A stretch of DNA of 46,086 nucleotides from an uncultured SAR324 cluster bacterium (lineage in GTDB: Bacteria > SAR324 > NAC60-12), in the NCBI GenBank assembly GCA_902562015.1, contig CACERX010000006.1, positions 1 to 46,086 on the forward strand, written 5' to 3'. Of the stretch, positions 8,431 through 45,789 are shown piece by piece (positions within the stretch are counted from its first letter, which is position 1; every line of letters begins with the position of its first letter). Position numbers and translations under genes: made by a program. The notes below the pieces were generated by a model that did no database searches, was not told where the DNA came from, and saw nothing but the letters and a program-made list of their open reading frames with translations.

Positions 8431-8431
8431 T

Positions 8432-8989
8432 TCAATCAAATGTACTCAGAGGCTTGCTTATAACACTACTTACCATCGGTTCAAAATGCTCTAAGGGTAG
8501 AGTGTCGTAATCAGGATCGAATGAAGATTGATCCCATTTATAACAAAAATCCACACAAGACTTATAATATGGGTGATCTATGTATTTTTCACGAACATTG
8601 CGGTCTTTATCAAGATGATGAAAATAGTAGTAACCTTGGAAAAGTCCATGGTGCTTCAGAATCCAATAATTTTGTTTACTAATGTATGGACGTAGAATAG
8701 AGGCAGCAACCTGGCTGTGATTCTGTGGAGCCAAGACATCTCCGATGTCATGCAAGAGAGTACAAACAATTGTTTCTTCATCTGCGCCATCTCTTTCTGC
8801 TCTTGTGGCAGATTGAAGAGAATGAGTATATCGGTCAATCTTGTATCCCATTTTTTCCCCTTGCATTTGTTTTAGTATTTTAAGCAGAGTGTCCGGTACC
8901 CCATTAAGGCAATCATTATACAGAGGTGTAAGGAAAGCATATTCTTCAGCAGTACCGTCTTCCATTTTTGTGAAACCGACAGTTTCCAT
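8432..8989 (-). CDS. HD-domain protein, PhnZ/TmpB-like candidate diiron oxygenase
   Basis: A 185-residue HD-domain protein. A possible six-ligand set can be read: His56 (RYTHSLQSA), His80-Asp81 (LLHDIGD), His91 (NHSQVAA), His114 (LKHHG) and Asp153 (YKWDQSS). The order His, His-Asp, His, His, Asp and the late Trp-Asp resemble the mixed-valent diiron oxygenases PhnZ, TmpB and MIOX rather than a phosphohydrolase, though hydrolase activity cannot be excluded. A real ribosome site, GGAG six bases before ATG, supports the start. It is the last gene of the minus-strand block that begins with carnitine dehydrogenase, separated from the class II aldolase by 174 bases. Function is not proven; the substrate is unknown. 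Confidence 0.7.
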   Translation of the reverse strand: METVGFTKMEDGTAEEYAFLTPLYNDCLNGVPDTLLKILKQMQGEKMGYKIDRYTHSLQSATRAERDGADEETIVCTLLHDIGDVLAPQNHSQVAASILRPYISKQNYWILKHHGLFQGYYYFHHLDKDRNVREKYIDHPYYKSCVDFCYKWDQSSFDPDYDTLPLEHFEPMVSSVISKPLSTFD

Positions 8990-9163
8990 AATATCTCCAG
9001 AATTTGAATTAGTTGTTCCTCTTTTTAAGAATAAATCTCAAATAATTAACTACTGAAAATTTTACTGGATTTCCATCCTAGACTTTTACCTAGATAGAAA
9101 TTCAGTCTAAATGACATAGTTTTAATATTATAAATATATCAATTTAATTAATTCAATAATTAA

Positions 9164-9886
9164 TCAGTCACGATAAGATGGCTCCTCTTCATCAAGAAGA
9201 GCTTTAAGATTATCAAAAAAAATAATGCTTAGATCCGGATAATTTTCAAGTTCTAAAGCTGTTTTTTCAGCGATTTTGTCCGATAGTATTCTCAGTGGCT
9301 TTTGAGTCCATAGGGATTTTATATATGTTTCAGCCGCTCTTTCAAAATAATAGAATCGATTAAAAACGTCTGCGACATCTGCACCGATCACAAGTACTCC
9401 ATGGTTCCCCATTATCATCACTTTTTTTAAAGGGTCATTGAGCATTGCAGCACATCTTTCACCCTCTTCTTCAAAGGCCAGCCCTCCATAATTTTCGTCA
9501 ATCACGTAACGGTTGTAGAACGATGCCGCATTCTGATCAATTGGAGGCAGGTTGCTGTCATCAAGAGAGGCAAGCACAGTGGAATAAATCGGGTGAGCAT
9601 GCAGTACACAGACTGCATGGGGACAGTTCCGATGTATTGCCCCATGCAAACCCCAGGCTGTAGGATCAGGGCCTAGGGGATCATTAATGTCAGGAGGAGC
9701 ATTTGCATCCAGCAGCAGGAGATCACTGGCTTTAATACGGCTGAAATGTTTTATCGGATTAATTAAAAACTTGGTTCCTTCCTTATTAACGGCAAGGGAC
9801 AAATGATTAGCTATAGCTTCATGCATTCCCATGCGTGCTGTCCAGCGGAAGGCACATGCTAAATCAATGCGTTCTTTTTGATACAT
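9164..9886 (-). CDS. Class II aldolase/adducin family protein
   Basis: A 240-residue member of the zinc-dependent class II aldolase fold (fuculose-phosphate aldolase/adducin head). Visible family blocks are GMHEAIANHLSLAV, the zinc-binding HAHP in VCVLHAHPIYSTVLASL and the third ligand in MGNHGVLVIG. Members cleave phosphorylated sugars, act as decarboxylases or are uncharacterised; many catabolic clusters carry one of unknown substrate. Neighbours are an MDR oxidoreductase upstream and the HD protein downstream, on the same strand as the carnitine genes, so a catabolic role is likely. There is no Shine-Dalgarno sequence before the ATG (CTAACATAATG). Confidence 0.85.
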   Translation of the reverse strand: MYQKERIDLACAFRWTARMGMHEAIANHLSLAVNKEGTKFLINPIKHFSRIKASDLLLLDANAPPDINDPLGPDPTAWGLHGAIHRNCPHAVCVLHAHPIYSTVLASLDDSNLPPIDQNAASFYNRYVIDENYGGLAFEEEGERCAAMLNDPLKKVMIMGNHGVLVIGADVADVFNRFYYFERAAETYIKSLWTQKPLRILSDKIAEKTALELENYPDLSIIFFDNLKALLDEEEPSYRD

Positions 9887-10010
9887 TATGTTAGGCTATC
9901 ACCGGCAATTTGAAGATATATCTTATAATCTCCCTTGGAAATAAGTATTCATTAGAATAAAAAAAATATAGCTTGAAACGCGTTAAAACTGATTGTTTTA
10001 TTAAAAACAC

Positions 10011-11030
10011 TTAATTAACGCGAACAACCAGTTTGCCAAAGTTTTTGCCATCAAACAGTCCAATAAAAGCTTCAGGAGCATTCTCAAGTCCATCTACAAT
10101 GTCCTCTAAATAGTGCAACTTTCCCTGCTTAACCCATTTTGCCAGCTGCTGTAATGCTTCTTTTTCTTGGTTTGCGAAATCCCATACAATAAAACCCCTA
10201 AAAGTCAGTCGTTTGACAAGGATACTTCTCATTAGTGAAGGAATTAAATTTGGCCCAGATGGAAGTTCTGTTGAATTGTAAGCTGATATTATTCCGCAAA
10301 CCGGAATCCTAGCAAAGTCATTAAGCAGAGGTAAAACAGAATCAAGTACTTTCCCTCCAACATTTTCAAAATAGACGTCAATTCCTTCTGGACAAACTTG
10401 TTTTAGTTCTTCTGAAAATTCACTACTTTTATGATTCAAGCAATGATCAAACTGAAATTTATCGGTTGCATACTTACATTTTTCCTTAGATCCTGCTATC
10501 CCAACTGAGCGCGCGCCCTTAAATTTTGCAATTTGTCCAACTACAGAGCCTACTGGTCCGCAGGCTGATGCAACCACAACAGTTTCACCTTTTATAGGTT
10601 TTCCAATATTCAACAGTCCAGTGTAAGCTGTAACTCCAGGCATACCAAGCACACCCGTCGCGGTTGAAATTGGAGCAATATCAGGATCGACATTTTTCAA
10701 TGTTTTGCCATTGTGTACCCAGTAATCCTGCCAGCCGCCATAACCAAAAACAATGTCTCCAGCCTTTAAATTAGGATCTCTTGATTCAATAACCTTACCC
10801 ACTGTGCCTCCAGTCATAACCTCGTTTATTTCAACTGGTTTAGCATATGATTTGGAGGGACTCATGCGTCCACGCATATACGGATCAAGAGATAAGTAAA
10901 GGGTTTCACATAAAACTTGTCCATCTACTGGCGTTGGAATAGATGTTTCATTTAATAGGAAGTCACTGGCTTTTGGCATTCCGACTGGACGGTTGGCAAG
11001 TAAAATTTGACGATTTGATGATCTGGTCAT
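10011..11030 (-). CDS. NADP-dependent medium-chain dehydrogenase/reductase (zinc-independent, CurA/LTB4DH-like)
   Basis: A 339-residue MDR-superfamily oxidoreductase. The N-terminus (NRPVGMPKASDF), SLDPYMRGRMS, MPGVTAYTGLLNIG, the nucleotide-binding ASACGPVGSVVGQIAKFKG and FENVGGKVLDSVL are characteristic of the leukotriene B4 12-hydroxydehydrogenase/2-alkenal reductase branch, which reduces alpha,beta-unsaturated carbonyls with NADPH and has no zinc. Length is normal. AAAGGT five bases before the ATG may serve as ribosome site. It lies 104 bases after the BKACE gene. Its role in the carnitine block is unclear: it may detoxify enone intermediates or be an independent passenger. Confidence 0.88.
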   Translation of the reverse strand: MTRSSNRQILLANRPVGMPKASDFLLNETSIPTPVDGQVLCETLYLSLDPYMRGRMSPSKSYAKPVEINEVMTGGTVGKVIESRDPNLKAGDIVFGYGGWQDYWVHNGKTLKNVDPDIAPISTATGVLGMPGVTAYTGLLNIGKPIKGETVVVASACGPVGSVVGQIAKFKGARSVGIAGSKEKCKYATDKFQFDHCLNHKSSEFSEELKQVCPEGIDVYFENVGGKVLDSVLPLLNDFARIPVCGIISAYNSTELPSGPNLIPSLMRSILVKRLTFRGFIVWDFANQEKEALQQLAKWVKQGKLHYLEDIVDGLENAPEAFIGLFDGKNFGKLVVRVN

Positions 11031-11134
11031 TTGGACCTTTACAAAATTAAAAATTATGTAGGTACTTTAGTTATACTTGTTTAATATTTTATTAGTAAAA
11101 TATCGAATTTTTTAATGACTATCAGGAGTCTAAA

Positions 11135-12013
11135 TCAACTTTTTGTTAATCCTAATTTTTCTCTTGTTTGCTGGGGGGTGACAATATTCCCGCCAAGTCT
11201 CTCGATAATCTCCACAGCTCTTTGAACCAATTGTCCGTTGCTAGCTAGTTCTCCTTTTTTGAGATAGAGGTTGTCTTCCAGGCCAACCCTTACATTACCT
11301 CCAAGTATCATGGCCTGTGCAACCATTGGCATTTGCAACCGCGAAATACCAAATCCTGCCCATATGGAATTCTCAGGAAGCATGTTCCTTAGAGCAAGCA
11401 TGTTTTCTGCATTAGCCTCCGCAGTCCAAGGTATTCCCATACATAACTGAAAAAGTGGTGGTTTATCAATTAAGCCTTCCTTGACCAACTGTTTTGCAAA
11501 CCATATTTGACCAAGCTCAAAAACCTCTATTTCCGGTTTCACTCCAAGTTCCTGTATTATTTTTGCCATTTTACGGAGCATATCAGGGGTACTCACGTAT
11601 GCAGTTGAGGAATAATTTTGACTACCACAATCCAGCGTACATATTTCGGGAAGTAGCTTTTTTACATGAGCAAGGCGCTCCTCCGGAGTGGCCATATCTG
11701 TGCCTGGGCCACCCTTGCTGGGATCTTCAGTATCAGGGATAAAATCTCCTCCCATGCCTGCAGTCAAGTTAAGGACAACGTCAGTGTTTGAGGACCTAAC
11801 ACGTTCAACGACTTCCTGATACCACTCAATCTTTCGTCCAGCCTCTCCAGTTTGAGGGTTTCGCACATGAATGTGTGCCACCGCAGCCCCGGCTTCAGCT
11901 GCTTCAATTGCGGCATCAGCTATTTGTTCAGGGGATTTTGGAAGATCAGGATGTTTGTCAGCTGTGTCGCCCGATCCTGTTACTGCACATGTGATGATGA
12001 CTTCATAATTCAT
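11135..12013 (-). CDS. cdhC: BKACE-family beta-keto acid cleavage enzyme, probable 3-dehydrocarnitine:acetyl-CoA transferase/cleavage enzyme
   Basis: A 292-residue BKACE (DUF849) protein. Zinc-ligand histidines are in AHIHVR (His47, His49), with a Glu in [10 protein letters not shown] as likely third ligand. Family members condense a beta-keto acid with acetyl-CoA, releasing acetoacetate and a CoA ester. The next gene upstream is a carnitine dehydrogenase-thioesterase fusion, so the substrate here is most likely 3-dehydrocarnitine, giving betainyl-CoA. The N-terminal [19 protein letters not shown] and [11 protein letters not shown] segments look like the carnitine-specific branch, but I assign the subfamily mainly from context. 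ATG start, no Shine-Dalgarno sequence. Cytoplasmic. Confidence 0.82.
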
Positions 12014-20698: not shown

Positions 20699-21169
20699 AT
20701 GGAAGTTTCTATGACAGTTAACGGTACCACTTTCACAAACGATGTGGAACCACGTACACTTCTTGTGCATCATTTGCGTGAGAACCTCCGACTTACAGGA
20801 ACCAATGTAGGTTGTGATACTAGCCAATGTGGTGCATGCACCATCCATGTTAATGGAGAGGCAGTAAAATCTTGCACCATGCTTGCGGTTCAGGCAGACG
20901 GTTCAGAGATAACTACAGTTGAAGGATTAGCGAAAGATAATGAGCTTCACCCAGTCCAGAAAGCCTTTTGGGAGAACCACGGCTTACAATGTGGTTATTG
21001 TACACCTGGAATGATAATGGCTGCAGTGGAAATGTTGAAAAATAATCCAAATCCTAATGAAGAAGAAATCAGACATGGACTTGAAGGTAATTTTTGCCGA
21101 TGTACAGGTTATCACAACATTGTTAAATCGGTCAAAGCGGCATCAGTTGCAATGAAAGGAGGTGCATGA
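20699..21169 (+). CDS. coxS: Xanthine dehydrogenase/CO dehydrogenase family iron-sulfur subunit
   Basis: A 156-residue [2Fe-2S] subunit of a molybdenum hydroxylase. The N-terminal plant-ferredoxin-like cluster ligands are in [16 protein letters not shown] plus the Cys of VKSCTML; the C-terminal cluster ligands are in CGYCTPGMI and [10 protein letters not shown]. It passes electrons from the molybdenum subunit to the FAD subunit. AAGGAG seven bases before ATG is a strong ribosome site. It overlaps the large-subunit gene by four bases. The gene order here is small-large-medium, unlike the M-S-L order of canonical CO dehydrogenase operons. Confidence 0.93.
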
Positions 21170-23541
21170 TGGGAAAATATATTGGTGAAAGTGTTTTAAG
21201 AAAAGAAGATCCTAGACTCGTTACTGGAGAAGCCAAATATTTGGAAGATATTCAGTTACCTGGAATGGTTCATGCGGCAGTTAAAAGAAGCGATTATGCC
21301 CATGCAAAGATAAAGAAAATTGATACTTCTGAAGCAGAGAAAATGTCTGGTGTTTTAGGAGTATGGACGGGCAAGGATTTTGAGGATATAAATCCAATGC
21401 CTTGCGCCTGGCAGGCGGGAGGAATTACAAATAATGCTAACACACCCAGAGTATTGGAAATTGATAAAGTGACCTTTACAGGTCAGGGAGTTGCGGTTGT
21501 GGTGGCTGAAGATAGAAGCATTGCCGAAGATGCCATTTCAAAAATTATCGTTGATTATGAGGAATTGCCCGTAGTGGTTAATGCTGAAGATGCAATAAAG
21601 CCTGGAGCTCCTCAACTTCATGAAAATGCTCCAAAGAACATTTGTATGGAATGGGAATGTGGGAATGAGGAGGGGACTGATAAAGCTCTTGGTGAAGCTG
21701 ACGTTGTAGTAAAAGAACAACTTGTGAATCAGCGGCTAATTCCAACCTCCATGGAACCTAGAGGAGCGATAGCGGATTACAAAACTGCTACTGAAGAGTT
21801 TACTGTTTGGATGACATCCCAAGCTCCGCATGTTCATAGATTATTGGCTACAGCTTTTGTTTTTGGAATTCCAGAGACAAAAATGAGGGTTATCGCCGCT
21901 CATGTTGGGGGAGGATTTGGATGTAAAATTTTCCTCTACCCGGAATATTGCTTGGTTGCTGCTCTTGCGAGAAAAATTGAACGGCCAATCAAATGGATGG
22001 AAACTCGTTCCGAAAATTTCCAGGCAACAACTCATGGAAGAGATCACTTAACAGAAATTCAAGTTGGTGCCAAGAATGATGGAACCATAACTTCTTTGAA
22101 GGTAGATACAATAGCCAATTTAGGTGGAACTCTATCGACAATTGCCCCTGGAATTCCTACGACTCTATATGGAAGGTTGCTTTCCGGAACGTATAAATTC
22201 CCGAACATTTATTGTGGTGTTAAAGGAGTGTACACTAATACAGGAATGGTAGACGCCTACAGAGGTGCAGGGAGACCGGAAGCCACTTTTGTAGTAGAAA
22301 GGGCACTGGATCTGGTCGCAAAAAAACTTGGATTGGATGTATTGGATGTTAGAAGGAAAAACTTCATACAAAAAGATCAATTTCCCTATATTCCCTCGGA
22401 TGGAATCACAAAAGGCCTAGCATATGACAGTGGAGATTATGAAAAACCATTAAATAAGGCCCTGGAAATGTTTGATTATTCTCAATTTAGAGATGATCAG
22501 AAAAAAGCACGTAGCGAAGGGAAATACCTTGGTGTAGGATTTTCTACCTACATTGAAGCCTGCGGTGTTGCTCCATCTGCTTGGGTTGGAGTCGCAGAAG
22601 GAGGTGAAGGTTGGGGTGCTGGACTTTGGGAAAGTGCTAACATCCGTGTTCATCTGACTGGAAAAGTTGTGGTTACTACAGGTTCTTCTCCTCATGGTCA
22701 AGGCACTGAAACGACCATGGCACAAATTGCAGCCGATGAGCTGGGTGTTTCATTAGATGATGTAGAAGTTCAGTACAACGATACTTTAGGGACCCCATTT
22801 GGTTATGGGACTTATGGAAGTAGAAGTGCTGCAGTAGGCGGTACTGCTCTCTTCAACGCGGTCAAAAAGGTAAAGCAGAAAGCCGTCAGAATTGGAGCTC
22901 ATATGTTGGAAGCTTCTGTAGATGATGTTATTTATGAAGATGGCAAAATTGGTGTTAAAGGCTCACCGGACCAGAGCAAAACTATCCAGGAAGTCGCAGG
23001 AGCTGCAGCATTGGGTTACAGTCTCCCTGAAGGAGATGAGCCTTTCCTAGATGAAACGGCATATTTCGACCCGCCAAATACAACATGGCCTTTTGGAACT
23101 CATATATGCGTTGTTGAAGTCGAAAAAGAAACAGGTTCTGTAAGGATTAAAAATTATATTGCAGTTGATGATGTGGGTAACGTTGTGAATCCTATGATTG
23201 TTGATGGACAAATACACGGAGGAATTGCTCAAGGCGTTGCACAGGCTCTCTGGGAATCAGGTGAATACAATGACTCCGGTCAGTTGGTTACAGGTTCTCT
23301 TTTGGATTACGCTTTCCCCAGGACTGATTGTCTTCCTAATTTTGAACTCGAACGTACCGTCACTCCTAGTCCTACGAATCCTTTAGGAGTCAAAGGGGTC
23401 GGTGAAACAGGTACGATTGCTTCTACGCCAGCAGTCGTAAATGCAGTTATGGATGCCTTGGAACCGTTTGGAATAACCAATCTGAATATGCCACTTACTT
23501 CACAAAAAATTTGGACCGCAATTAAAAATAAAGGAGCTTAA
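21166..23541 (+). CDS. coxL: Molybdenum hydroxylase large subunit, form II CoxL-like
   Basis: A 791-residue molybdopterin-binding catalytic subunit of the xanthine dehydrogenase family. Features in order: [19 protein letters not shown] at the N-terminus, [17 protein letters not shown] at residues 364-370, [20 protein letters not shown] and the catalytic Glu in VKGVGETG. Form I CO dehydrogenase carries AYxCSFR with the Cys that ligates copper; here the sequence is AYRGAGR, the form II signature, so CO oxidation is doubtful and the physiological substrate is unknown. GGAGGTG before ATG is a very strong ribosome site. It shares an operon with coxS and coxM and lies downstream of dmdB. Confidence 0.9.
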
Positions 23542-24390
23542 ATGTACGCAGCAGATTTTGATTATGTTAAGGCTTCAAGCATTGAAGAAGCCATTTCTCT
23601 CAAAGGATCGAATGATGATTCAAATTTTCTTGCAGGAGGTCATAGTTTGATTCCAGCAATGAAATTAAGACTTAGCACTCCTCAAAAATTAATTGACATC
23701 TCAGGATTAGATGAATTGAAAAATATTTCTGAGAATGGTAATTACATTAGCATTGGTGCTTTATGTACTCACAAACAGTGTGCTGATTCACACATAATCC
23801 AAAATATATGTCCAGCTTTAAGTGATGCAGCTTCTGTTATAGGTGATCCACATGTCAGGAACAAAGGCACCATCGGAGGAGCATTAGCACATTCTGATCC
23901 TCAGGCAGATTATCCTGGGGTGGTCTTAGCACTGAATGCTTCCTTTACTTTAAAAGGAACTTCAGGAGAACGTACGATAGATTCAGTTGATTATTTTACT
24001 GGTCTTTGGGAAACTGCTCTGGGCGAAAATGAGATTTTTGCTGAAGTTAGGATCCCAGTTGATAGTGCCAACGCTAATTCGTGCTATCTCAAGTTTCCGC
24101 AGCCTGCCTCCCGTTACCCGTATGTGGGCTGTGCAGTTGCTATAGATGGGTCTGGAGGAAATTGTTCCGAAGTCCGAGTTGGTTTCAGTGGAGTTTCCGA
24201 GTTCGCTTTTCGTGATAGGGGTGTTGAAGATGAAATAAGGGGAAAGGAACTAAAAGAAGAAACAATTGCATCGGCTTCAGCTAAAGCTGCTGAGGGACGC
24301 AGTGTTCTAAGTGATCATTTTGTTAGTGAGGAATACAGGCGCGCGATGGCTCAAGTTTATGCTAAGCGTGCACTGACAAAGCTTTCTTGA
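23542..24390 (+). CDS. coxM: Molybdenum hydroxylase FAD-binding (medium) subunit
   Basis: A 282-residue FAD subunit of the CoxM/vanillyl-oxidase-fold type. FAD-binding loops are visible as AGGHSLIPAMKLRL (residues about 31-44) and the TIGGALAHSDPQADYPGVVL block near residue 112. It takes electrons from the [2Fe-2S] subunit and passes them to the quinone pool or another acceptor. Its ATG follows the coxL stop immediately, and AAAGGAG at the end of coxL is its ribosome site. No maturation genes (coxD, coxE, coxF, coxG) follow, so insertion of the cofactor must use factors elsewhere. Confidence 0.92.
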   Translation: MYAADFDYVKASSIEEAISLKGSNDDSNFLAGGHSLIPAMKLRLSTPQKLIDISGLDELKNISENGNYISIGALCTHKQCADSHIIQNICPALSDAASVIGDPHVRNKGTIGGALAHSDPQADYPGVVLALNASFTLKGTSGERTIDSVDYFTGLWETALGENEIFAEVRIPVDSANANSCYLKFPQPASRYPYVGCAVAIDGSGGNCSEVRVGFSGVSEFAFRDRGVEDEIRGKELKEETIASASAKAAEGRSVLSDHFVSEEYRRAMAQVYAKRALTKLS

Positions 24391-36392: not shown

Positions 36393-37274
36393 TTAACCAT
36401 TAGCTTTAAGAGAATTGTAAAGTTCAAAAGCTTTTTCTGCACTTTCATTTTCATGGACAACAGACCTTACAGCCTTTATCATGGCGACTGGAGCTTCTGA
36501 TTGAAAGATGTTTCTTCCCATGTCCACACCAGCGGCACCCTGCTGGATTGCGTTGTAAGCCATTTTCAAAGCATTTAATTCAGGAATTTTTTTCCCTCCA
36601 GCAATAACTATTGGCACAGGACAACTTGCCGTGACAGTTTCAAAATCATTTTCTATATAATAGGTTTTGATATAATGAGCTCCTAATTCCGCACATATTC
36701 GGGTTGCAAGCCTGAAATATCTTGCATCACGTACCATGTCTTTGCCTACTGCGGTTACAGCTAAAGTTGGAATTCCGTAACGATTCCCCTGATCAACAAG
36801 CCTGGTCATATTGATAATAGACTGTTTTTCATACTCACCACCTATAAAAACCTGAACAGCCATGGCTGAGACATTCATACGGATTGAATCCTCTATATCC
36901 ACAGCAATTTCCTCGTTGGATAATTCTTTTAGCATACTGGTACCGCCTGAAGCACGCATCACAATGGATTGAGAAAATGAAGGAGGTACGATACTGCGTA
37001 AAATCCCGCGTGTGAGCATAAGTGTGTCTGCGTAAGGAGCGAGAGGCATTATTTTTACGTCTATACGTTCCAGACCTGTGGTTGCTCCTTGAAAATAACC
37101 ATGATCAAAGGCTAGCATTACTGTTCGACCCGTTTTTGGGTTAAAAATTCGGGCCAACCGGTTCTGCATTCCCCAATCGAGCGCGTTCAAACCTTTTAGG
37201 AAAAAAGACTCTGATTTCTGTGGAATGTCAAGGTAGTATTCTTTCGTATCTTTTAATTCGTCTAAATCAGCCAT
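36393..37274 (-). CDS. lsrF: LsrF-like aldolase/thiolase (3-hydroxy-5-phosphonooxypentane-2,4-dione thiolase family)
   Basis: A 293-residue class I aldolase-fold protein that closely resembles E. coli LsrF over its whole length: MADLDELKD start, [77 protein letters not shown]. The Schiff-base lysine region [12 protein letters not shown] is retained. LsrF in enterics is a thiolase-type enzyme of phospho-AI-2 breakdown that makes DHAP and acetyl-CoA. The other lsr genes (kinase, transporter, regulator) are absent here. It is 28 bases after an aldolase/dehydrogenase fusion gene and, two genes back, mtnA, so it is likely to act in a pentose-type salvage route. Confidence 0.87.
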
Positions 37275-37302
37275 TATGTTTTACATATTTAAAATGAGGG
37301 TT

Positions 37303-39327
37303 TTAAATGACACGGTCATTGCCGCCGTCTATAGGAATTTGGGCTCCTGTTGTTTTCGCGAAAACTGGTCCTGCCAAGGCACAGACCATCTGTGCCACTT
37401 CTATTGTTTTAACATCAGATTTCAGAATATTCCTGCTTTTGTATTCTTCTACGGTTAATCCGTAACGCTTTGCTGACCTTTCCAAAGTATTTGAAGTCCA
37501 TAGTCCTGTATCATAGACACAGTCCGGATGAACAATGTTTACTCTTATACCATAACAACCCAATTCAAGAGCCGCAATTCTTGCCAATTGAGTTTGTCCT
37601 GCTTTAGGGACTGAGTATGCAGATGCTCCCGGTCCAGGAGCGGGGACATTCCTTGAGGCTATAAACACAACCGACGGATCAATTCCTTCCTTCAAAAATG
37701 GAACACATTTCTGCAATAATTGCTGAGGTGCAGTTAAATTTGTTTTCAGGCTTTTACTCCACGTGTCATCCTCAAGTTCTTCGATGGTCTGTCCTGCAGG
37801 AAAAGTCCCAGCATTCAAAACAAGAATGTCTATACCACCAAAGTATTGTACAGTTTTTGCCACTGCCTTTGCAATAGAATGTTTTACCGTAACATCACAT
37901 TGAATACCCAATATATGGGTTCTGTTGGATTTAGTATTTTTCGAAAAAATGTCATTTATTTCCGGATTTATATCAAGTCCGACTACAGCCGCACCTAATT
38001 GATTAAAATGTTCAGCACAAGCTAGTCCTATTCCGCTGGCAGCACCTGTAACAATAGCAATTTTACCTTCAAATTCTGGAGGCTGGGATTCTTTTTTTAA
38101 TTTTGCCTGTTGTAATTCCCAATACTCTGCCTCAAAAATATGATCTTCAGAGATTGGTTTCCAGCCTCGGTAATTTAAGGAATTCATATTTTCTGCTTGC
38201 TGGATTGCTTGCACAGTATGCATGACAATATCTGAGATAGTTTCAGTTTCATCAGGGCTTTTTCCGAAGTATAAAATACCTTCTTCAGACCAGACTCCCC
38301 AGCGTGGCGAACTGTCCAGTCGTGTTTGTTTTCCGTCTGTGTGTCGATCAAAATAAGATACATATTTGGATGCAAAGTCTTCAATGTCTTTTTCAACATT
38401 TTTATTTTTAATATAGACCGGAGAAGGTTTGATACGAATCAGATGATCTGAGGTAATAGGACCACGAGTAGAAATCTGTTTTACGTTTGGTAAACTGGAA
38501 AAAAATCGTGCTTCCGGATTGTTATTTAACCTCGCAAGTGAAGCGTTCCCTCGGATAATTGAGACCTTTTTTCTGATACGTGCAAGTTTTCTTAATGTTT
38601 CCTGCTTTAATACTGGCGCAGTTTTCTTAAAATTATTTTTTGGCATGGAAGAAAATTTTTTTAAATATTTTTCTGCAAGCGTAACTGCATTGATCATTCT
38701 TTTATAACTCTCATGTGCTTCAGTACCAAATGAAATTATGCCATGATTCAGCAGAATCATTCCTTCGTATTGTTGCCAGTCCACCTTCTTAGTAATTTCA
38801 TAAACCGTTCGAGCCAGCTTGAAACCTGGCATTACATAAGGAATGATAAGAAAACTGTCACCGTAAATATTCTTAATTAGTTTCTTACCTTTAGGTGTAT
38901 TTGTTAAAGTGACTACAGCATCAGCATGGGTGTGGTCAATCCAGCTAAATGGAATTATAGCGTGTAGAAGAGATTCTACAGAAGGGCGCGGTGCTTCCGG
39001 ATGGGTCATGGCAAGCTGCTGTTCACGTACCAACATCGTGTCGCTGATATCCAAAAGTTCCACCAGCTTCTTCATATGTGCCAGGCGAAGAGGAGTGAAG
39101 TCTGCTGTATCAATTGTGGCTAAATTTCTACCGCTCCCTTTCACGTACAGGATCTCTTCTTCTTCTCCAAAAATGTTTGTTTCATTGATTTTTACTGAAG
39201 TATTGCCACCGCCATGCAGCACTAGTTCTGAATCAAGTCCCAATAGTTGTGAAGAATAAACGCGCAGTAGGAGGGGTTTTTTTTTAAGCCTAGAAGCTAA
39301 TTTATGATCCCAAAGGTTTTTCATCAA
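37303..39327 (-). CDS. Bifunctional class II aldolase / short-chain dehydrogenase fusion (RhaD-RhaE-like)
   Basis: A 674-residue fusion. Residues about 20-230 are a class II aldolase: LHGGGNTSVK, zinc ligands in SWIDHTHADAVVTLT and the third in LLNHGIISFG. A linker of about 170 residues contains a conserved IRIKPSPVYI stretch. Residues about 425-670 form an SDR: cofactor motif KIAIVTGAASGIGLAC, DILVLNAGTFP and the YxxxK catalytic pair in SAYSVPKAGQ. Known fusions of this plan cleave rhamnulose-1-phosphate to DHAP and lactaldehyde and oxidise the aldehyde. The genomic position between mtnA (15 bases upstream) and lsrF (28 bases downstream) suggests a methylthioribulose- or deoxyribulose-phosphate substrate instead. 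Confidence 0.87.
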   Translation of the reverse strand: MMKNLWDHKLASRLKKKPLLLRVYSSQLLGLDSELVLHGGGNTSVKINETNIFGEEEEILYVKGSGRNLATIDTADFTPLRLAHMKKLVELLDISDTMLVREQQLAMTHPEAPRPSVESLLHAIIPFSWIDHTHADAVVTLTNTPKGKKLIKNIYGDSFLIIPYVMPGFKLARTVYEITKKVDWQQYEGMILLNHGIISFGTEAHESYKRMINAVTLAEKYLKKFSSMPKNNFKKTAPVLKQETLRKLARIRKKVSIIRGNASLARLNNNPEARFFSSLPNVKQISTRGPITSDHLIRIKPSPVYIKNKNVEKDIEDFASKYVSYFDRHTDGKQTRLDSSPRWGVWSEEGILYFGKSPDETETISDIVMHTVQAIQQAENMNSLNYRGWKPISEDHIFEAEYWELQQAKLKKESQPPEFEGKIAIVTGAASGIGLACAEHFNQLGAAVVGLDINPEINDIFSKNTKSNRTHILGIQCDVTVKHSIAKAVAKTVQYFGGIDILVLNAGTFPAGQTIEELEDDTWSKSLKTNLTAPQQLLQKCVPFLKEGIDPSVVFIASRNVPAPGPGASAYSVPKAGQTQLARIAALELGCYGIRVNIVHPDCVYDTGLWTSNTLERSAKRYGLTVEEYKSRNILKSDVKTIEVAQMVCALAGPVFAKTTGAQIPIDGGNDRVI

Positions 39328-39342
39328 AGTCGTTTAGATTAG

Positions 39343-40386
39343 TTAAATGTACTTATTATGAAGATTTTCTTTGTATGGAGGCCCTATAATTCCTTTGTCT
39401 GTAATAAGGCCAGTTACTAACTCATTCGGAGTTACGTCAAAAGCAGGATTTTGGGCTTTCATATTTTCAGGTGCCGTTCTCTGCATTCCAAAATTTGTTA
39501 CTTCTTCTGTTTCCCTTTGTTCGATCAGTATATCCTTACCTTGTCTTGTCTTAAAATCAATAGTGGAATAAGGACAAGCAACGTAAAAAGGAATTTCAAA
39601 ATGTCTAGCAATGATAGCTAATCCATGAGTCCCGATCTTATTAGCCACATCCCCGTTAGAAGCTACGCGGTCTGTCCCTGTTATAACCAAATCAATCAGT
39701 CCCTGTGACATTATATGAGCCGCCATATTGTCTGTTAGAAGTGTAACGTCAATACCGGACTGTCTAAGCTCCCAGCTTGTCAAACGAGCTCCCTGAAGCA
39801 AGGGGCGTGTTTCACTGGAGTAAACTCTAAATCTAATCTTTTCACGGTGAGCCAAATACATTGGAGCAGTCGCAGTACCAATACCTGTAGTTGCCAGAGC
39901 ACCTGCATTACAGTGTGTCATTAAACCCATGTCTTTTTCAATCAGTGAAACACCGAATTTACCTATGTCCAGGCAAAGCTGTTCATCCTCATTATGAATG
40001 CGAATTGCTTCTTCCTCCATAAATTTAAATAATTCTTTGGAATCTTTACCAGAAAATGATTTTGCGCATTCTAGCATCCGGTCCAGTGCCCATTTTAAAT
40101 TGACAGCTGTTGGTCGGGCACTGTCCAGATATTCTGCTTTTGTTTTAATTAGCTCGTTGAATCTTTTTTTATTTAGTCCTGTTTTATCTCTAATTCCTAA
40201 AAGTAAACCGTAGGCTCCTGCTACACCAATTGCAGGTGCGCCTCTTACTTTGAGCTGTCTAATAGAATCCCAGACCTGTTCCACAGTTTTCTGCTTTTCT
40301 TCCACTACTTTCTGAGGCAGCATTGTTTGATCAAGGAAGTATAATTCTCCGGCGTCCCAGCGAATGGTCTTAGGTAAGGATGACAT
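39343..40386 (-). CDS. mtnA: S-methyl-5-thioribose-1-phosphate isomerase
   Basis: A 347-residue MtnA. It converts 5-methylthioribose-1-phosphate to 5-methylthioribulose-1-phosphate and in some bacteria also handles 5-deoxyribose-1-phosphate. Conserved catalytic blocks are present: the Cys in LMTHCNAGALATTGIGTA and the Asp in VITGTDRVASNGDVANKIGTH, with RGAPAIGVAGAYGL near the N-terminus. First gene of a tight three-gene operon. No other methionine-salvage genes (mtnB, mtnC, mtnD, mtnP, mtnK) are in the window. Related eIF2B-like proteins share the fold, but the catalytic pair makes MtnA the best call. Cytoplasmic. Confidence 0.93.
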   Translation of the reverse strand: MSSLPKTIRWDAGELYFLDQTMLPQKVVEEKQKTVEQVWDSIRQLKVRGAPAIGVAGAYGLLLGIRDKTGLNKKRFNELIKTKAEYLDSARPTAVNLKWALDRMLECAKSFSGKDSKELFKFMEEEAIRIHNEDEQLCLDIGKFGVSLIEKDMGLMTHCNAGALATTGIGTATAPMYLAHREKIRFRVYSSETRPLLQGARLTSWELRQSGIDVTLLTDNMAAHIMSQGLIDLVITGTDRVASNGDVANKIGTHGLAIIARHFEIPFYVACPYSTIDFKTRQGKDILIEQRETEEVTNFGMQRTAPENMKAQNPAFDVTPNELVTGLITDKGIIGPPYKENLHNKYI

Positions 40387-40524: not shown

Positions 40525-41694
<1,170 letters not shown>

Positions 41695-41758
41695 TCATTA
41701 TTTTGTTAATTAAGTTTAGTATATTTTTTATTTCAATCTGAAAACAATTAAATACAAG

Positions 41759-43915
41759 TCACATGATCCGATGGAATAACTGGCCGTCCTTAGCCATCTC
41801 CCTTATTTGTTCTGTAGGTTCATATATTTTTCCAAAAGAATTAAGTTTTTCGGTTCTCTTTAGTAATTCATTCAAACCTGCAGAATCAGCCCAACGGAAA
41901 ATTCCACCGCGGAATGGCGGGAACCCAAGTCCGTAAATCAGTCCCATATCAACTTCCATGGGAGTCTCAACTATATTTTCTTCCAAACAGCGAGAACTTT
42001 CCATCAACATTGGAAGCATCATCCTGTAAATGATATCTTCATCGCTGATATCATCGCCTGAGCTTACGTTCAATTCACGGATAAAATTCCCAGTTCCTGG
42101 GTTGATCTCTTTTTTGGGCTTACCCTTCTTGTCTTTTGAATGAATATAAAACCCTTTTTCGTTTTTCTTGCCAAACCAATTCTGTTCAAACATTTTAGAT
42201 ATAATTGTAGGATTCCTACTGCTCAATCGTTCTGGGTACCCTTCAGCCATCACACTTCCAGCATGGAAAGCTGTGTCAATTCCTACGACGTCAAGAAGAC
42301 ATGCGGGACCCATTGGCCAGCCGAATTTTTCCATTACTTTATCAATATGCTCATAATCAACTCCGTCACTCACCAAGCCTGTAAATCCTGCAAAATAGGG
42401 GAACAATACTCTATTTACAAGAAACCCCGGACAGTCATTTACCACAATAGGACTTTTCCCCATTGCAGTTGCAAAAGCAACTGTGGAAGCAATTGTTTCC
42501 TCTGAACTTTTTTCACCACGGATCACCTCAACAAGAGGCATTCTGTGTACTGGATTAAAAAAGTGCATTCCACAAAACTGTTCCGGTCGTTTAAGTCCTT
42601 TAGCCAGTTTTGTAATTGAAATTGTGGAAGTATTTGAAGCAAGGATCGCGTTTTTACTGATAATTGATTCAGTTTCTGACAGTACTGATTTTTTCACACT
42701 TTCTTTTTCTACCACTGCCTCGACTACTATGTCTGCATTGGCAATATTTTCATATGAAATTGTTGGAGTAATTTCAGTCAAAATATTAGTCATTCTCTCT
42801 AATTCCATTTGCCCACGGTCAACACGTTTTTGCATTATTTTAGCAGCCTCCTTCATACCTAAATCCAGCTGAGATTGAGTAATATCCTTCATGGCTATTG
42901 GGATACCTTTGAATGCAGATTGATAAGCTACCCCGCCGCCCATAATACCAGCGCCAAGAACCGCAGAGCGATTTACTGGTCTAGCTATTTTTTTTGAAAT
43001 TTTTGCTTTTTTCTTTAGCAGTTGATCACCTAAAAATAAACCTATTAATGAAGTAGCTTCCGGAGACTTTGCTAGTTCCGCAAATCCTTCTGCCTCAATT
43101 TGCAGTGCCCCTTCAAGTGGGAGATTTGCACCAGCCTGCATGACACCGACAATAGTTAAAGGTGCAGGGTAGTTTGGACCGGCTTTCCCAGCAATGAATG
43201 CACGTGCGGTCTCAAATGTCATCATTGCTTCGTTTTCATTCAACATCAAGGGTTGATGTTTTTCTTTACGTTTTGTTTCCCATTTCAGTTCACCACTAAT
43301 TGCCCTAGCAAGCAGGTCCAAAGAAGCATCCCTTAATATTTCGGGCTCAACCACTGAGTCAATTGCACCAACATTGAGAGCATTTTCTGGATTGTTATCC
43401 TTACCTCCAGCTATCCATTCTATGGCATTATCAGCACCTATGAGTCTTGGCAGTCTTGATGTGCCTCCAAATCCTGGTAGCAACCCGAGTTTAACTTCGG
43501 GTAAGCCGACTTTAGCTTCCGATGAGGCTACTCGATAAGTACATGCAAGGCACAATTCAAATCCTCCTCCAAGTGCAAATCCATTTATCGCGCAGACACT
43601 AGGAATATTTAAATTTTCTAGATTTGAAAAAACCTGCTGGCCGTCTTTTACCCATTGAACTAGAATTTCCAGTGGTTCCTGAAAAGTTCCCAGAAACTGA
43701 TTAATATCTGCACCTACAATGAATGAGTCTTTCCGGCTGGAAATAAGCAGTCCTTTTACAGATTTATCTCTTCCAAGTAGCTTAACTACTTCATCGAGTT
43801 CCTGAAGCGAGTTTTTATCAAACTTATTTACAGATTCATCTTGTGAGTTAAATATAAGCTCAGCAATATTGTTTTCCCCAGTAATGCATTGCAGTGCTTG
43901 GCCGTTATATTCCAT
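41759..43915 (-). CDS. fadB: Multifunctional fatty acid oxidation enzyme (enoyl-CoA hydratase/3-hydroxyacyl-CoA dehydrogenase)
   Basis: A 718-residue two-enzyme protein. Residues about 1-190 are a crotonase: oxyanion and acid residues in ALGGGFELCLACTYRVAS and LPEVKLGLLPGFGGT, hydrating 2-enoyl-CoA. Residues about 310-600 are the NAD-dependent 3-hydroxyacyl-CoA dehydrogenase: AVLGAGIMGGGVAYQSAFKG and the catalytic His-Phe-Phe-Asn region MHFFNPVHRMPLVEVIRG. The C-terminus has the family's LIYGLGFPPFRGGIFRWAD. It is 23 bases after fadE and before fadA. In principle it could also process the DmdB product chain, but the DMSP-specific hydratase DmdD is not separately present. Confidence 0.95.
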   Translation of the reverse strand: MEYNGQALQCITGENNIAELIFNSQDESVNKFDKNSLQELDEVVKLLGRDKSVKGLLISSRKDSFIVGADINQFLGTFQEPLEILVQWVKDGQQVFSNLENLNIPSVCAINGFALGGGFELCLACTYRVASSEAKVGLPEVKLGLLPGFGGTSRLPRLIGADNAIEWIAGGKDNNPENALNVGAIDSVVEPEILRDASLDLLARAISGELKWETKRKEKHQPLMLNENEAMMTFETARAFIAGKAGPNYPAPLTIVGVMQAGANLPLEGALQIEAEGFAELAKSPEATSLIGLFLGDQLLKKKAKISKKIARPVNRSAVLGAGIMGGGVAYQSAFKGIPIAMKDITQSQLDLGMKEAAKIMQKRVDRGQMELERMTNILTEITPTISYENIANADIVVEAVVEKESVKKSVLSETESIISKNAILASNTSTISITKLAKGLKRPEQFCGMHFFNPVHRMPLVEVIRGEKSSEETIASTVAFATAMGKSPIVVNDCPGFLVNRVLFPYFAGFTGLVSDGVDYEHIDKVMEKFGWPMGPACLLDVVGIDTAFHAGSVMAEGYPERLSSRNPTIISKMFEQNWFGKKNEKGFYIHSKDKKGKPKKEINPGTGNFIRELNVSSGDDISDEDIIYRMMLPMLMESSRCLEENIVETPMEVDMGLIYGLGFPPFRGGIFRWADSAGLNELLKRTEKLNSFGKIYEPTEQIREMAKDGQLFHRIM

Positions 43916-43938
43916 TTAATTAGATTAAGTTAGATAGA

Positions 43939-45789
43939 TTAAAAAGTTATTTCAAGTGCATCGAAGTTCTGTTTTTTCCCTCCCTCAAGCAAAGCATGGT
44001 ATTGAGGAATGACAGCTTCTAAAAAGTAACGCGTTGTTTTTAGCTTGTTTGAATAAAAAAGCGCTTTCTCATTTTTCGTTAAAAATTCTGAATCTTCAAG
44101 GTCTTCTATACCTTCTTTTGATCTTATTACTGACAATTTTTCTGATGCTACTATTGCTTGCTGCAACAGAAGCCAGCCTGCTGTTACTGAAGAGATAAAC
44201 ATCAAAAATGGTGTTGCATAAAGTGCTATGGATTCCATACCTCTTTCGTTCAAAATTTCCTGTGTTGACATTGAAGTTTCATAAAGCGATTCACAATAAC
44301 CTTCAAAAATTTTAATTAATCTCCCCATTTCTTCGTGGTCTTTGTGTTCATTTATTAATTCACTGTAATGTCCCATAAGTTGCTGAAAAAGAGCGCCATT
44401 GTTGCGGAGAATTTTTCTGCCGATTAAATCCAGTGCCTGAATATCGGTTGTACCTTCATAAATTGTAGAAATTCTTGCGTCCCGGTATAGTTGTTCAAGA
44501 GGAAAGTCTTTGGTATAACCAACACCTCCTAAAACCTGAAGACCAGTTTGAACTACTTCAAGACCAACCTCTGTACACCAGCCTTTGCACATAGGTGTAA
44601 GCATATCGATCATATTCTGCCGTAGTCCTTTTTCATCATCTGTTTTAGCAATTCTCTCCAAATCGAATTCAAATGCAGTATAATAAATAAGGGCGCGCAT
44701 AGCTTCGACCCTAGACTTCATATTGAACAGATTTAGTCGAACTGCTGGATGTTCAATTATTGATACTCTTTGTGCATTTAAATCACGGATTTTTGAAATG
44801 TTTGTACCCTGAACACGCTCATGTGCATAGGTTTTTGCGTTTTCATATGCAGCTCCACCAAGTGATAATCCAATTAATCCGGTAAAAATTCGTGCTGTAT
44901 TCATCATCTGAAACATAGCAGCAATGCCTTCGCCTTCACTGCCAAGAATCCATCCTAAACAATCATCATTTTCTCCAAAACTCAGAACTGCAGTTGGGCT
45001 TGAATGGATTCCCATTTTATTTTCAATTGATGCAACCGTTACGTCATTCCACTCTCCTAATGAACCGTCATCGTTTACTCTGAAATATGGAACTACAAAC
45101 AAGCTCAAACCTTTTGTTCCATCTGGAGCTCCCTTGACGCGTGCCAAAACAGTATGAATTACATTTTCACCTAAGTCACTATCTCCAGAAGAAATCCAGC
45201 ATTTAGTCCCTTTTATTTTGTATACACCATTACCAACTGATTCAGCGCTTGTTATTCCTGCGCCTACATCAGAACCTGCATGTGGCTCACTCAAACACAT
45301 AGTTCCCGTATAGTGTCCCTGATACATTTTTGCTATGTATTTTTCCTTCAACATTTTTGACCCAAATGTTTCAATCAATTTTGCAGCACCAGAAGTGAGT
45401 CCGAAAAACATCCCTAATCCAAGGTTTGCACCGTTTATTGCTTCACTAACTATTAAACCAATAGTTGCTGGAGCACCCATACCTCCATATTCTTGAGAAT
45501 CAGAAGTTGAAGCCCATCCCAATTCATAAGCCTTTTGATAAGGTTTGTGTAAACATTCTGAAACTTTTACCCTACCATCTTCTATTCTGCAGCCATTACG
45601 ATCACTTTCTGCACGAGTTGGAGAAACCACCTCTATAGCAAAACGTATCCCTTCCTCTACCATCATTTCGAGTGTATCCTGATCAAACTCAGCAAATTTT
45701 TCTGAATTGTTCAGCTTTCCAAGTTTAAGCCATTCTTTGATTGTGAAACTGATATCAGTCTTGTCAAGTGTTAGATCTGTACTACTCAT
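43939..45789 (-). CDS. fadE: Acyl-CoA dehydrogenase, long form with C-terminal extension
   Basis: A 616-residue FAD-dependent acyl-CoA dehydrogenase that introduces the 2,3 double bond. Visible family features: MCLSEPHAGSDVGAGITSAE, KIKGTKCWISSGD, LQVLGGVGYTKDFPLEQLYR and the catalytic-Glu block DARISTIYEGTTDIQALDLI. About 150 residues follow the usual domain, as in the ~600-residue AcdA/DmdC-type branch. It is first in a fadE-fadB-fadA block, which indicates fatty acid oxidation; a role as methylmercaptopropionyl-CoA dehydrogenase (DmdC is of this size) is an alternative, given dmdA and dmdB elsewhere in the window. No Shine-Dalgarno sequence precedes the ATG. Confidence 0.9.
   Translation of the reverse strand: MSSTDLTLDKTDISFTIKEWLKLGKLNNSEKFAEFDQDTLEMMVEEGIRFAIEVVSPTRAESDRNGCRIEDGRVKVSECLHKPYQKAYELGWASTSDSQEYGGMGAPATIGLIVSEAINGANLGLGMFFGLTSGAAKLIETFGSKMLKEKYIAKMYQGHYTGTMCLSEPHAGSDVGAGITSAESVGNGVYKIKGTKCWISSGDSDLGENVIHTVLARVKGAPDGTKGLSLFVVPYFRVNDDGSLGEWNDVTVASIENKMGIHSSPTAVLSFGENDDCLGWILGSEGEGIAAMFQMMNTARIFTGLIGLSLGGAAYENAKTYAHERVQGTNISKIRDLNAQRVSIIEHPAVRLNLFNMKSRVEAMRALIYYTAFEFDLERIAKTDDEKGLRQNMIDMLTPMCKGWCTEVGLEVVQTGLQVLGGVGYTKDFPLEQLYRDARISTIYEGTTDIQALDLIGRKILRNNGALFQQLMGHYSELINEHKDHEEMGRLIKIFEGYCESLYETSMSTQEILNERGMESIALYATPFLMFISSVTAGWLLLQQAIVASEKLSVIRSKEGIEDLEDSEFLTKNEKALFYSNKLKTTRYFLEAVIPQYHALLEGGKKQNFDALEITF

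Follow-up and report, generated by a model that had tools for sequence, protein, structure and literature searches.

The operon encodes MtnA, an aldolase/dehydrogenase fusion, and LsrF

The window, a 46,086-nucleotide stretch of contig CACERX010000006.1 from an uncultured SAR324 cluster bacterium, carries three adjacent genes on its minus strand: mtnA (39343..40386, 347 aa), encoding methylthioribose/5-deoxyribose-1-phosphate isomerase, a gene for a class II aldolase/short-chain dehydrogenase (SDR) fusion (37303..39327, 674 aa), and lsrF (36393..37274, 293 aa), encoding a member of the 3-hydroxy-5-phosphonooxypentane-2,4-dione thiolase family. The tight same-strand trio described in an earlier sequence-only reading is borne out, as the ORF list places 15 bases between mtnA and the fusion gene and 28 bases between the fusion gene and lsrF. 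The fusion ORF opens with TTG, directly followed by an ATG at 39324. Since this ATG is the start common to 18 relatives aligned with the window fusion, the first gap more likely measures 18 bases. The three genes are presumably co-transcribed.

In the profile search, MtnA scores 427.4 bits against TIGR00512 (cut-off 279) and also matches PF01008; its nearest solved structures are the MtnA entries 2yrf and 1t9k. The fusion reaches 838.5 bits with NF006196 (cut-off 831) and is composed of a class II aldolase domain (residues 32–221, 38665..39234, minus strand; PF00596) and an SDR domain (residues 419–674, 37303..38073, minus strand; PF00106/PF13561). LsrF, which shares 65.6% identity with E. coli LsrF, belongs to NF006081 with 513.6 bits (cut-off 297).

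Residues E118, H132, H134, and H195 of the fusion correspond in alignment to the equivalent Glu and His residues of E. coli FucA, are invariant in alignment A1 (19 sequences), and are taken by us to have the catalytic and metal-binding roles of their FucA counterparts. At the sequence level, the aldolase active site looks intact, so that ordinary retro-aldol cleavage would be possible. The SDR triad S558, Y571, and K575 is likewise invariant in A1, as is D452, presumably the NAD-type acidic residue by motif rules. Among the nearest solved SDRs is 4-formylbenzenesulfonate dehydrogenase (TsaC, by its PDB name), and the SDR domain may therefore act on an aldehyde. In LsrF, K203 (codon 36666–36668), presumably the catalytic lysine, and H58 are the same in all 62 sequences aligned, that of E. 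coli among them.

Conserved linkage in the SAR324 phylum

The sequence-only reading proposed a search for the same gene order elsewhere. The order mtnA–fusion–lsrF recurs in seven SAR324-phylum genomes (loci L001, L002, L003, L005, L007, L010, and L121), whose fusions are 63–85% identical to that of the window and which contain no ORF of 80–90 aa or more between the three genes; in L121, the fusion–lsrF gap measures about 0.3 kb. Being kept in seven genomes, the order is not due to chance. Moreover, LsrF exceeds the cut-off in 22 SAR324-phylum genomes, 18 of which have a fusion on the same strand within 5.5 kb. These LsrF-associated fusions form two groups of about 31–35% mutual identity. LsrF and fusion lie on separate contigs in G033, G034, and G036, and far apart on one contig in G417, while G012 has an mtnK–mtnA–fusion operon and LsrF on separate contigs. 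L009 shows the order fusion–Rpe–LsrF. The most extended same-strand block, GntR–mtnK–mtnA–fucU–tktN–tktC–RuBisCO-like–fusion–LsrF, is found in L127 (G049), where mtnK and fucU pass their cut-offs and both transketolase halves, like the RuBisCO-like protein, give family matches that stay below cut-off. Beside this block (L185) lies a sugar-type ABC transporter with an ATPase 34% identical to LsrA.

Salvage and quorum-signal enzymes were sought in 52 SAR324-phylum genomes, all of them relatives of the window's organism. MTAP exceeds its cut-off in 30 and MtnK is present in eight. Among the seven trio genomes, MTAP is over cut-off in G005, G007, and G010, just under it in G028, and not found in the window's closest relatives, G001–G003 (1.3–2.0 Mb); MtnK is found in none of the seven. 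LsrK over cut-off is absent from all 52 genomes, with weaker matches in 21 (best 227 bits vs. a cut-off of 528); none of 14 control genomes passed either. LuxS was found in 0 of 52 genomes and in 5 of the 14 controls. Turnover of AI-2 is therefore unlikely, as the sequence-only reading had supposed, and AI-2 processing by the window operon is weakened as an explanation.

Fusion neighbourhoods across genomes

To place the fusion in a wider context, 8000 candidates were scored in a protein search and 301 fusion relatives were confirmed in a genome scan, the best 80 of which were kept as loci. Within 4 kb of the fusion on either strand, mtnA occurs in 31 of the best 80 of 301 loci; five of these 80 carry mtnK together with mtnA (L053, L056, L058, L062, and L080), and in L077 the fusion is linked to mtnP–apt–mtnA. 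Together with the L127 block, this linkage to mtnA, mtnK, and mtnP answers the question whether mtnP or mtnK accompanies the fusion and supports the salvage of 5-deoxypentoses or methylthioadenosine suggested from the window. Conversely, neighbouring rha genes, named beforehand as a finding that would speak for rhamnulose phosphate, are absent: no rha or fuc gene, judged by similarity to the E. coli rha/fuc proteins only, lies near the fusion in the best 80 of 301 loci, and we reject a rhamnose function of the fusion on this ground. A viral origin was also rejected, as no homologue was confirmed in viral contigs.

LsrF is not a constant companion of the fusion. Among 49 of the 64 remaining loci (L021 and 14 others were left out), a single genome carries LsrF at E ≤ 1e-60 and 48 are without it, indicating that LsrF is an addition in some lineages. 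A fusion gene of this type and a true LsrK gene overlap in the Arcobacteraceae genome L063.

LsrF and dehydrogenases in Verrucomicrobiota

LsrF is present in 43 Verrucomicrobiota genomes, of which 40 neighbourhoods were analysed (G099, G209, and G245 were left out), with genes chosen by blast guidance. SDR genes that lack an aldolase domain stand beside LsrF in eight of these 40 loci. In L170 and L171, they share about 54–55% identity with the SDR domain of the window fusion; in L145 and L146 an SDR of the other fusion group lies near LsrF; none of these four loci contains an aldolase match. The aldolase-less SDR ORFs of L146–L149 are 371–414 aa long and extended upstream of the SDR, the extension matching no aldolase domain. 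In an SDR tree that included seven of the eight (L016, L151, L171, and L173 did not match the motif filter and were omitted), the aldolase-less SDRs require at least two changes. A fusion near LsrF in one genome, L172, carries E118→D, H132→Q, H134→C, and H195→L and has lost the GGGNTS motif; its aldolase domain still scores 35 bits with PF00596, and its SDR is intact.

A zinc-type dehydrogenase adjoins LsrF in L143, L144, and L174 (Pfam checked in L143), and this replacement of the SDR by another dehydrogenase family is a point for oxidation preceding cleavage. The loci are not always aldolase-free, since separate class II aldolases stand beside LsrF in L143 and L147–L150. In L147, one Verrucomicrobiota genome, LsrF is embedded in a rhaA–aldolase–LsrF–Rpe–SDR–rhaB-like operon. 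A fusion, related SDR, or zinc dehydrogenase is missing from 24 of the 40 loci, 19 of which have DhaK/DhaL and five of which have neither. An LsrG-like gene of the ABM family, confirmed with Pfam in L164, belongs to three DhaK–DhaL–LsrF clusters, and proteins of ~104 aa beside DhaK in seven loci have no Pfam match (0/7), their identity as VOC proteins being unproven. As mtn genes are near LsrF in 0 of the 40 loci, a tie of LsrF to mtn genes beyond SAR324 is rejected, and the evidence for the link comes from this phylum. This result and the rhaA/rhaB-type operon of L147 indicate that the pairing of LsrF with a dehydrogenase is probably not restricted to methylthioadenosine and 5'-deoxyadenosine.

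Oxidation followed by thiolysis as a proposed salvage route

Reactions that use S-adenosylmethionine leave 5'-deoxyadenosine and methylthioadenosine as by-products (PMC10986504). The operon probably recycles a five-carbon sugar derived from S-adenosylmethionine, and on balance we favour, with some reserve, a 5-deoxypentose phosphate salvage in which the SDR oxidises and LsrF then cleaves with CoA. Substrate, reaction order, and products are deduced from gene families and linkage. The 5-deoxypentose phosphates would arise via 5'-deoxyadenosine, and probably methylthioadenosine too. MtnA would convert 5-deoxyribose-1-phosphate to 5-deoxyribulose-1-phosphate, whose C4 hydroxyl would be oxidised with NAD+ by the SDR domain. 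The predicted product, CH3-CO-CHOH-CO-CH2OP, is identical in constitution to 3-hydroxy-5-phosphonooxypentane-2,4-dione, on which LsrF is known to act, and LsrF would split it with CoA into DHAP and acetyl-CoA, thereby avoiding the release of acetaldehyde. Epimerisation of the substrate, hydrolysis of the dione, or a parallel DHAP-shunt cleavage may be the task of the aldolase domain. E. coli LsrF converts this dione to DHAP and acetyl-CoA (PMC6410053, PMC7828210). Since the C4-oxidised sugar phosphate is the very compound that names NF006081, the chemistry counts for oxidation first. The high identity of the window LsrF to the E. coli enzyme with K203 and H58 retained, the same-strand pairing with a fusion in 18 of 22 SAR324-phylum genomes, the L127 block, and the LuxS, LsrK, and MTAP counts in the 52 genomes also speak for this route. 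Weighing against it are the intact-looking aldolase site of the window, the 48 of 49 fusion genomes without LsrF, the SAR324-phylum genomes in which LsrF and fusion are apart, the 24 of 40 Verrucomicrobiota loci without such a dehydrogenase, the 0 of 40 with mtn genes, the separate aldolases of L143 and L147–L150, the limitation of the aldolase-dead fusion to a single genome, and the MTAP and MtnK results in the seven trio genomes.

Alternatively, the fusion may work like RhaEW in a DHAP shunt, which we regard as rather unlikely: the aldolase would cleave 5-deoxyribulose-1-phosphate or methylthioribulose-1-phosphate, giving DHAP plus an aldehyde that the SDR would oxidise, and LsrF would have a side role on another sugar phosphate or as a class I aldolase. 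The intact aldolase residues of the window agree with such a shunt, as do fusions linked to mtnK/mtnA or mtnP/mtnA in genomes, drawn from several phyla, in which LsrF was not found (for instance L053, L058, L062, and L077) and the conversion of rhamnulose-1-phosphate to DHAP and lactate reported for RhaEW (PMC3870299). However, it leaves unexplained why LsrF and fusion pair repeatedly, in different arrangements and in two fusion groups, and why LsrF and a related SDR stay together at loci whose aldolase is missing or inactivated. This persistence favours oxidation before thiolysis, and of the mechanisms offered by the sequence-only reading, oxidation of the sugar phosphate ahead of LsrF thus gains, as a deduction, over an SDR acting on the aldehyde. 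The NAD+ dependence of RhaEW is also as expected if oxidation precedes cleavage: PMC3870299 describes neither DHAP nor lactate being formed without NAD+, its authors' own reading of this result being a different one.

It is improbable that LsrF handles the AI-2 of neighbouring cells and stands by mtnA and the fusion owing to a shared metabolism of S-adenosylmethionine by-products rather than a common pathway. Its high identity to E. coli LsrF, the LsrK overlap in L063, the LsrA-like ATPase beside the L127 block, and the Verrucomicrobiota DhaK–DhaL–LsrF clusters, three with an ABM-family gene, which could be an AI-2 route, are compatible with this role. Against it stand the missing LuxS and over-cut-off LsrK in the 52 genomes, the lack of any LsrA–D-like gene up to four genes away from the fusion in those SAR324 loci of the best 80 of 301 that carry LsrF, and the tight linkage of LsrF with mtnA and the fusion, to which L127 adds mtnK. 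A rhamnulose-1-phosphate aldolase/dehydrogenase in an operon for rhamnose or another 6-deoxyhexose is highly improbable; the fusion does fall in the wider RhaEW-like group, and L147 combines LsrF with rhaA- and rhaB-like genes, yet the window fusion stays below the TIGR02632 cut-off and the 80 loci have no rha/fuc gene as opposed to 31 with mtnA.

Tentatively, and with more doubt than conviction, we extend the oxidation-then-thiolysis route to a broader proposal in which LsrF is primarily the thiolase of a widespread aldolase-free splitting of ketose-1-phosphates and not a quorum-signal enzyme. The ketose-1-phosphate would come from a kinase or an isomerase, such as MtnK/MtnA, RhaA/RhaB, or perhaps DhaKL. 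Its C4 would be oxidised by a dehydrogenase, be it a fused SDR, a free SDR, or a zinc-type enzyme; Rpe or a VOC/glyoxalase-like protein would, as the epimerase, adjust the oxidised ketose phosphate, and LsrF would yield DHAP and an acyl-CoA, namely acetyl-CoA from 5-deoxypentoses and lactyl-CoA from rhamnose. AI-2 breakdown would then be one use of the module.

The window operon appears to employ a quorum-signal enzyme so that acetyl-CoA, and not a toxic aldehyde, is set free. In the established DHAP shunt, the aldehyde formed can be converted by aerobic E. coli to ethanol alone (PMC10986504). Oxidation followed by CoA cleavage, if true, would keep all carbon as DHAP and acetyl-CoA, would explain what LsrF does where it belongs to no quorum-sensing system, and would allow the mechanism of RhaEW-type fusions to be reinterpreted in a testable way. 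Literature searches, with most subscription papers outside their reach, found nothing joining 5-deoxyribose with LsrF, or deoxyribulose, thiolase, and dihydroxyacetone phosphate; by title, none of the matches listed that name both lsrF and mtnA is on topic.

Comparison with known systems

The DHAP shunt for 5'-deoxynucleosides (PMC10986504) comprises MtnP or Pfs plus MtnK, followed by MtnA and Ald2. The window operon shares MtnA, whose family score is over cut-off, and the predicted end product DHAP, and relatives' fusions are linked to mtnK or mtnP. In contrast, the stand-alone FucA-type Ald2 is replaced by an aldolase fused to an SDR, LsrF is added, and acetyl-CoA rather than acetaldehyde is expected. 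RhaEW, L-rhamnulose-1-phosphate aldolase/L-lactaldehyde dehydrogenase (PMC3870299), has the same two-domain architecture and, as predicted here, a ketose-1-phosphate substrate, whereas the window fusion scores 378.5 bits with TIGR02632 (cut-off 567.75), is linked to mtnA instead of rha genes, and is paired with LsrF. With the Lsr processing of AI-2 (LsrK, LsrG, and LsrF), the operon has in common an LsrF with the conserved lysine and a predicted substrate of the same constitution. It differs in its SAR324 setting, where 52 genomes yielded neither LuxS nor an over-cut-off LsrK, and in the origin of the dione, which here would come from oxidation of a deoxypentulose phosphate and not from isomerisation by LsrG.

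The mtnA, fusion and lsrF genes form one probable operon

The three minus-strand open reading frames described in the sequence-only reading are borne out in position: mtnA (39343–40386), the class II aldolase/SDR fusion (37303–39327), and lsrF (36393–37274) follow one another at distances of 15 and 28 bases. A TTG lies directly 5′ of the ATG of the fusion, and the ATG is the start in 18 aligned relatives. MtnA (TIGR00512) and LsrF (NF006081) score above their NCBIfam cut-offs, and the fusion (NF006196) does so narrowly (838.5 versus 831). The window LsrF shares 65.6% identity with its E. coli counterpart, and K203 and H58 are conserved throughout the 62 sequences compared. In a 19-sequence alignment of the fusion, E118, H132, H134, and H195 of the aldolase domain as well as S558, Y571, and K575 of the SDR domain are invariant. 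E. coli FucA aligns with the fusion at these four aldolase residues, positions with catalytic roles in FucA. Named genomes among the closest fusion relatives are mostly SAR324 cluster bacteria.

The same strand carries fadA, fadB, and a gene of the acyl-CoA dehydrogenase family just upstream of mtnA (40525–45789, minus). They are probably outside the operon, because in loci L001, L002, L007, and L010 a gene on the opposite strand, which judged by eye resembles pyruvate kinase, lies between fadA and mtnA. Elsewhere, the window carries a stand-alone second class II aldolase-family gene (9164–9886, minus; NF005689 “hypothetical protein”, 369.8 bits, cut-off 260), a 3-keto-5-aminohexanoate cleavage enzyme-like gene (11135–12013, minus; 247.8 bits, under the cut-off of 382), and three genes resembling the MoCo-binding, FAD, and iron–sulphur subunits of molybdenum hydroxylases (20699–24390, plus). 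The nearest models of the latter are glyceraldehyde and xanthine dehydrogenase, with the two scanned subunits under cut-off.

LsrF is paired with two groups of fusions in SAR324

Genome-wide statements rest on relatives of the window's organism, “SAR324” denoting the 52 genomes of the phylum that includes G001, the genome from which L001 comes; from the genome scan for the fusion, the best 80 of 301 loci were analysed. With no ORF of 80–90 aa or more allowed between the genes, the order mtnA–fusion–lsrF recurs in other genomes (L001, L002, L003, L005, L007, L010, and L121). L006 stops within LsrF; in L009, a ribulose-phosphate 3-epimerase (TIGR01163, above cut-off) separates fusion and LsrF, as do four genes in L068 and L076. 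Across the SAR324 loci with LsrF, fusion identity drops to 63%, while LsrF holds 88–96%.

MtnA and LsrF exceed their cut-offs in 40 and 22 of the 52 SAR324 genomes, respectively, and the fusion is found at E ≤ 1e-60 in 33. In 18 of the 22 LsrF-bearing genomes, a fusion lies within 5.5 kb of LsrF on the same strand; G033, G034, and G036 have the two on separate contigs, and in G030 the contig ends, so that the distance is not assignable. Six of these 18 (G048, G049, and G052–G055) carry a second fusion group, approximately 31–35% identical to the window's, that of G052 being found by blast but missed at E ≤ 1e-60 in the genome search. As both groups are paired with LsrF, the case for the pairing is not limited to one inherited arrangement. 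In G048, lsrF is split over two frames. Locus L126 has lsrF in two overlapping frames (8533–9413), a frameshift or assembly error.

The trio has a probable link to 5-deoxypentose salvage

Regardless of strand, mtnA lies within 4 kb of the fusion in 31 of the 80 loci, and in 21 of the 56 loci with more than 1.5 kb on both sides. Adjacent rha genes would have spoken for a rhamnulose phosphate enzyme, and rha or fuc genes, sought by similarity to the E. coli proteins, occur near the fusion in none of the 80 loci. Both linked genes that were looked for were found: mtnK, mtnA, and the fusion are consecutive in Sulfurimonas (L053, L058, and L062), Opitutales (L056), and Deinococcales (L080), with MtnK above cut-off in all three loci scanned (L053, L056, and L080), and L077 reads fusion–mtnP–apt–mtnA.

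The most extended arrangement is a single-strand block in L127 (8211–17976 of G049:C51), comprising GntR, mtnK, mtnA, fucU mutarotase, a split transketolase, a RuBisCO-like gene, the fusion, and lsrF; mtnK and fucU score above their cut-offs, and both halves of the transketolase as well as the RuBisCO-like protein match below cut-off. Divergent from this block, L185 holds a sugar-type ABC transporter with a weakly RbsB-like binding protein, then a further MtnA and a member of the glyoxalase family. We assign the L127/L185 cluster to the MTA/5-deoxyribose type. In L126 and L128, a small protein resembling the glyoxalase-family one is encoded between the fusion and LsrF; that of L128 is 46% identical to its L185 counterpart and has no Pfam match of its own.

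MTAP exceeds its cut-off in 30 of 52 SAR324 genomes. Among the seven trio genomes it does so in three and falls just under in G028; it was not found in G001–G003, the window's closest relatives, whose assemblies span just 1.3–2.0 Mb. MtnK occurs in 8 of 52 SAR324 genomes and in none of the seven trio genomes. The proposed place of the trio in 5-deoxypentose salvage is well supported within SAR324.

AI-2 processing had been considered less likely, in agreement with 0 of 52 SAR324 genomes having LsrK above cut-off or LuxS. LuxS is present in 5 of 14 control genomes; LsrK exceeds its cut-off in 0 of 14, i.e. this search had no positive control, and weaker matches occur in 21 of 52 SAR324 genomes (best 227 bits versus 528). 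Both LsrK of E. coli K-12 and the protein of L063 are nevertheless picked up by the LsrK model. In this Arcobacteraceae locus (8001–11551), the fusion overlaps a true LsrK by one base (865.8 bits, cut-off 528); its genome yielded no LsrF at E ≤ 1e-60.

Dehydrogenases, some without an aldolase domain, accompany LsrF in part of the Verrucomicrobiota loci

LsrF exceeds its cut-off in 43 of 288 Verrucomicrobiota genomes, 40 of which were examined for its neighbourhood. Sixteen of the 40 loci have a same-strand dehydrogenase no more than four genes away: a fusion in five, a fusion-related SDR without aldolase domain in eight, and a zinc-type dehydrogenase in three. DhaK or DhaL is near LsrF in 24 loci, 19 of them devoid of such dehydrogenases, and five loci have neither. 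No mtn genes, and no lsrK-, lsrB-, or lsrR-like genes above the threshold used, were found near LsrF in the 40 loci. The eight aldolase-less SDRs share 45–55% identity with the SDR domain in either one fusion group or the other, versus about 32–40% across groups, requiring at least two changes on a tree that includes seven of them. Within the locus, no class II aldolase match was found in L170, L171, L145, and L146, and L147–L150 retain a separate one.

In L172, where the fusion is followed by DhaK, DhaL, and LsrF, neither the GGGNTS motif nor the counterparts of E118, H132, H134, and H195 are left in the aldolase domain, which still scores 35 bits with PF00596 and is joined to an intact SDR. 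This aldolase-dead fusion is from one genome. In the taxonomic order of L172, 11 of 177 genomes match its fusion at E ≤ 1e-40; the ten other members have open frames of 657–721 aa, and that of L056, the sole one aligned, has the aldolase residues. A protein of ~104 aa, with no Pfam match, is encoded near DhaK-DhaL-LsrF in seven Verrucomicrobiota loci (L151, L154, L158, L159, L163, L166, and L182).

Oxidation may precede thiolytic cleavage

According to two reports, LsrF converts 3-hydroxy-5-phosphonooxypentane-2,4-dione with CoA to DHAP and acetyl-CoA (PMC6410053, PMC7828210); the NF006081 family name gives the same substrate. Oxidation of 5-deoxyribulose-1-phosphate at C4 would produce this dione, which LsrF would cleave with CoA into DHAP and acetyl-CoA. 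Since the C4-oxidised sugar phosphate would be the LsrF substrate, structure formulas and gene linkage suggest that MtnA, SDR, and LsrF make up a complete route, with LsrF acting on its established substrate. We consider oxidation followed by thiolysis the best-supported reading, at slightly better than an even chance; the literature matches listed, with coverage excluding most subscription journals, contained no report of it. The rival, an ordinary DHAP shunt run by a fusion of the RhaEW type, retains substantial weight: the window's aldolase domain looks intact, and thus a parallel or ordinary retro-aldol reaction may take place. LsrF occurs in 1 of 49 further fusion genomes searched and is therefore an optional addition.

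The gene contexts of L147 and L145 suggest that the LsrF–dehydrogenase module serves several ketose-1-phosphates. L147 (3482–10770), from a Verrucomicrobiota-phylum genome, holds in a row rhaA, a class II aldolase, LsrF, Rpe, an SDR, and a rhamnulokinase (rhaB)-like gene below cut-off, a rhamnose-type operon; in L145, a lyxose isomerase-family gene adjoins LsrF. RhaEW, a characterised relative of the fusion, gave neither DHAP nor lactate without NAD+, which its authors read as a requirement of dehydrogenase activity for aldolase activity (PMC3870299). Oxidation before cleavage fits the RhaEW result equally well.
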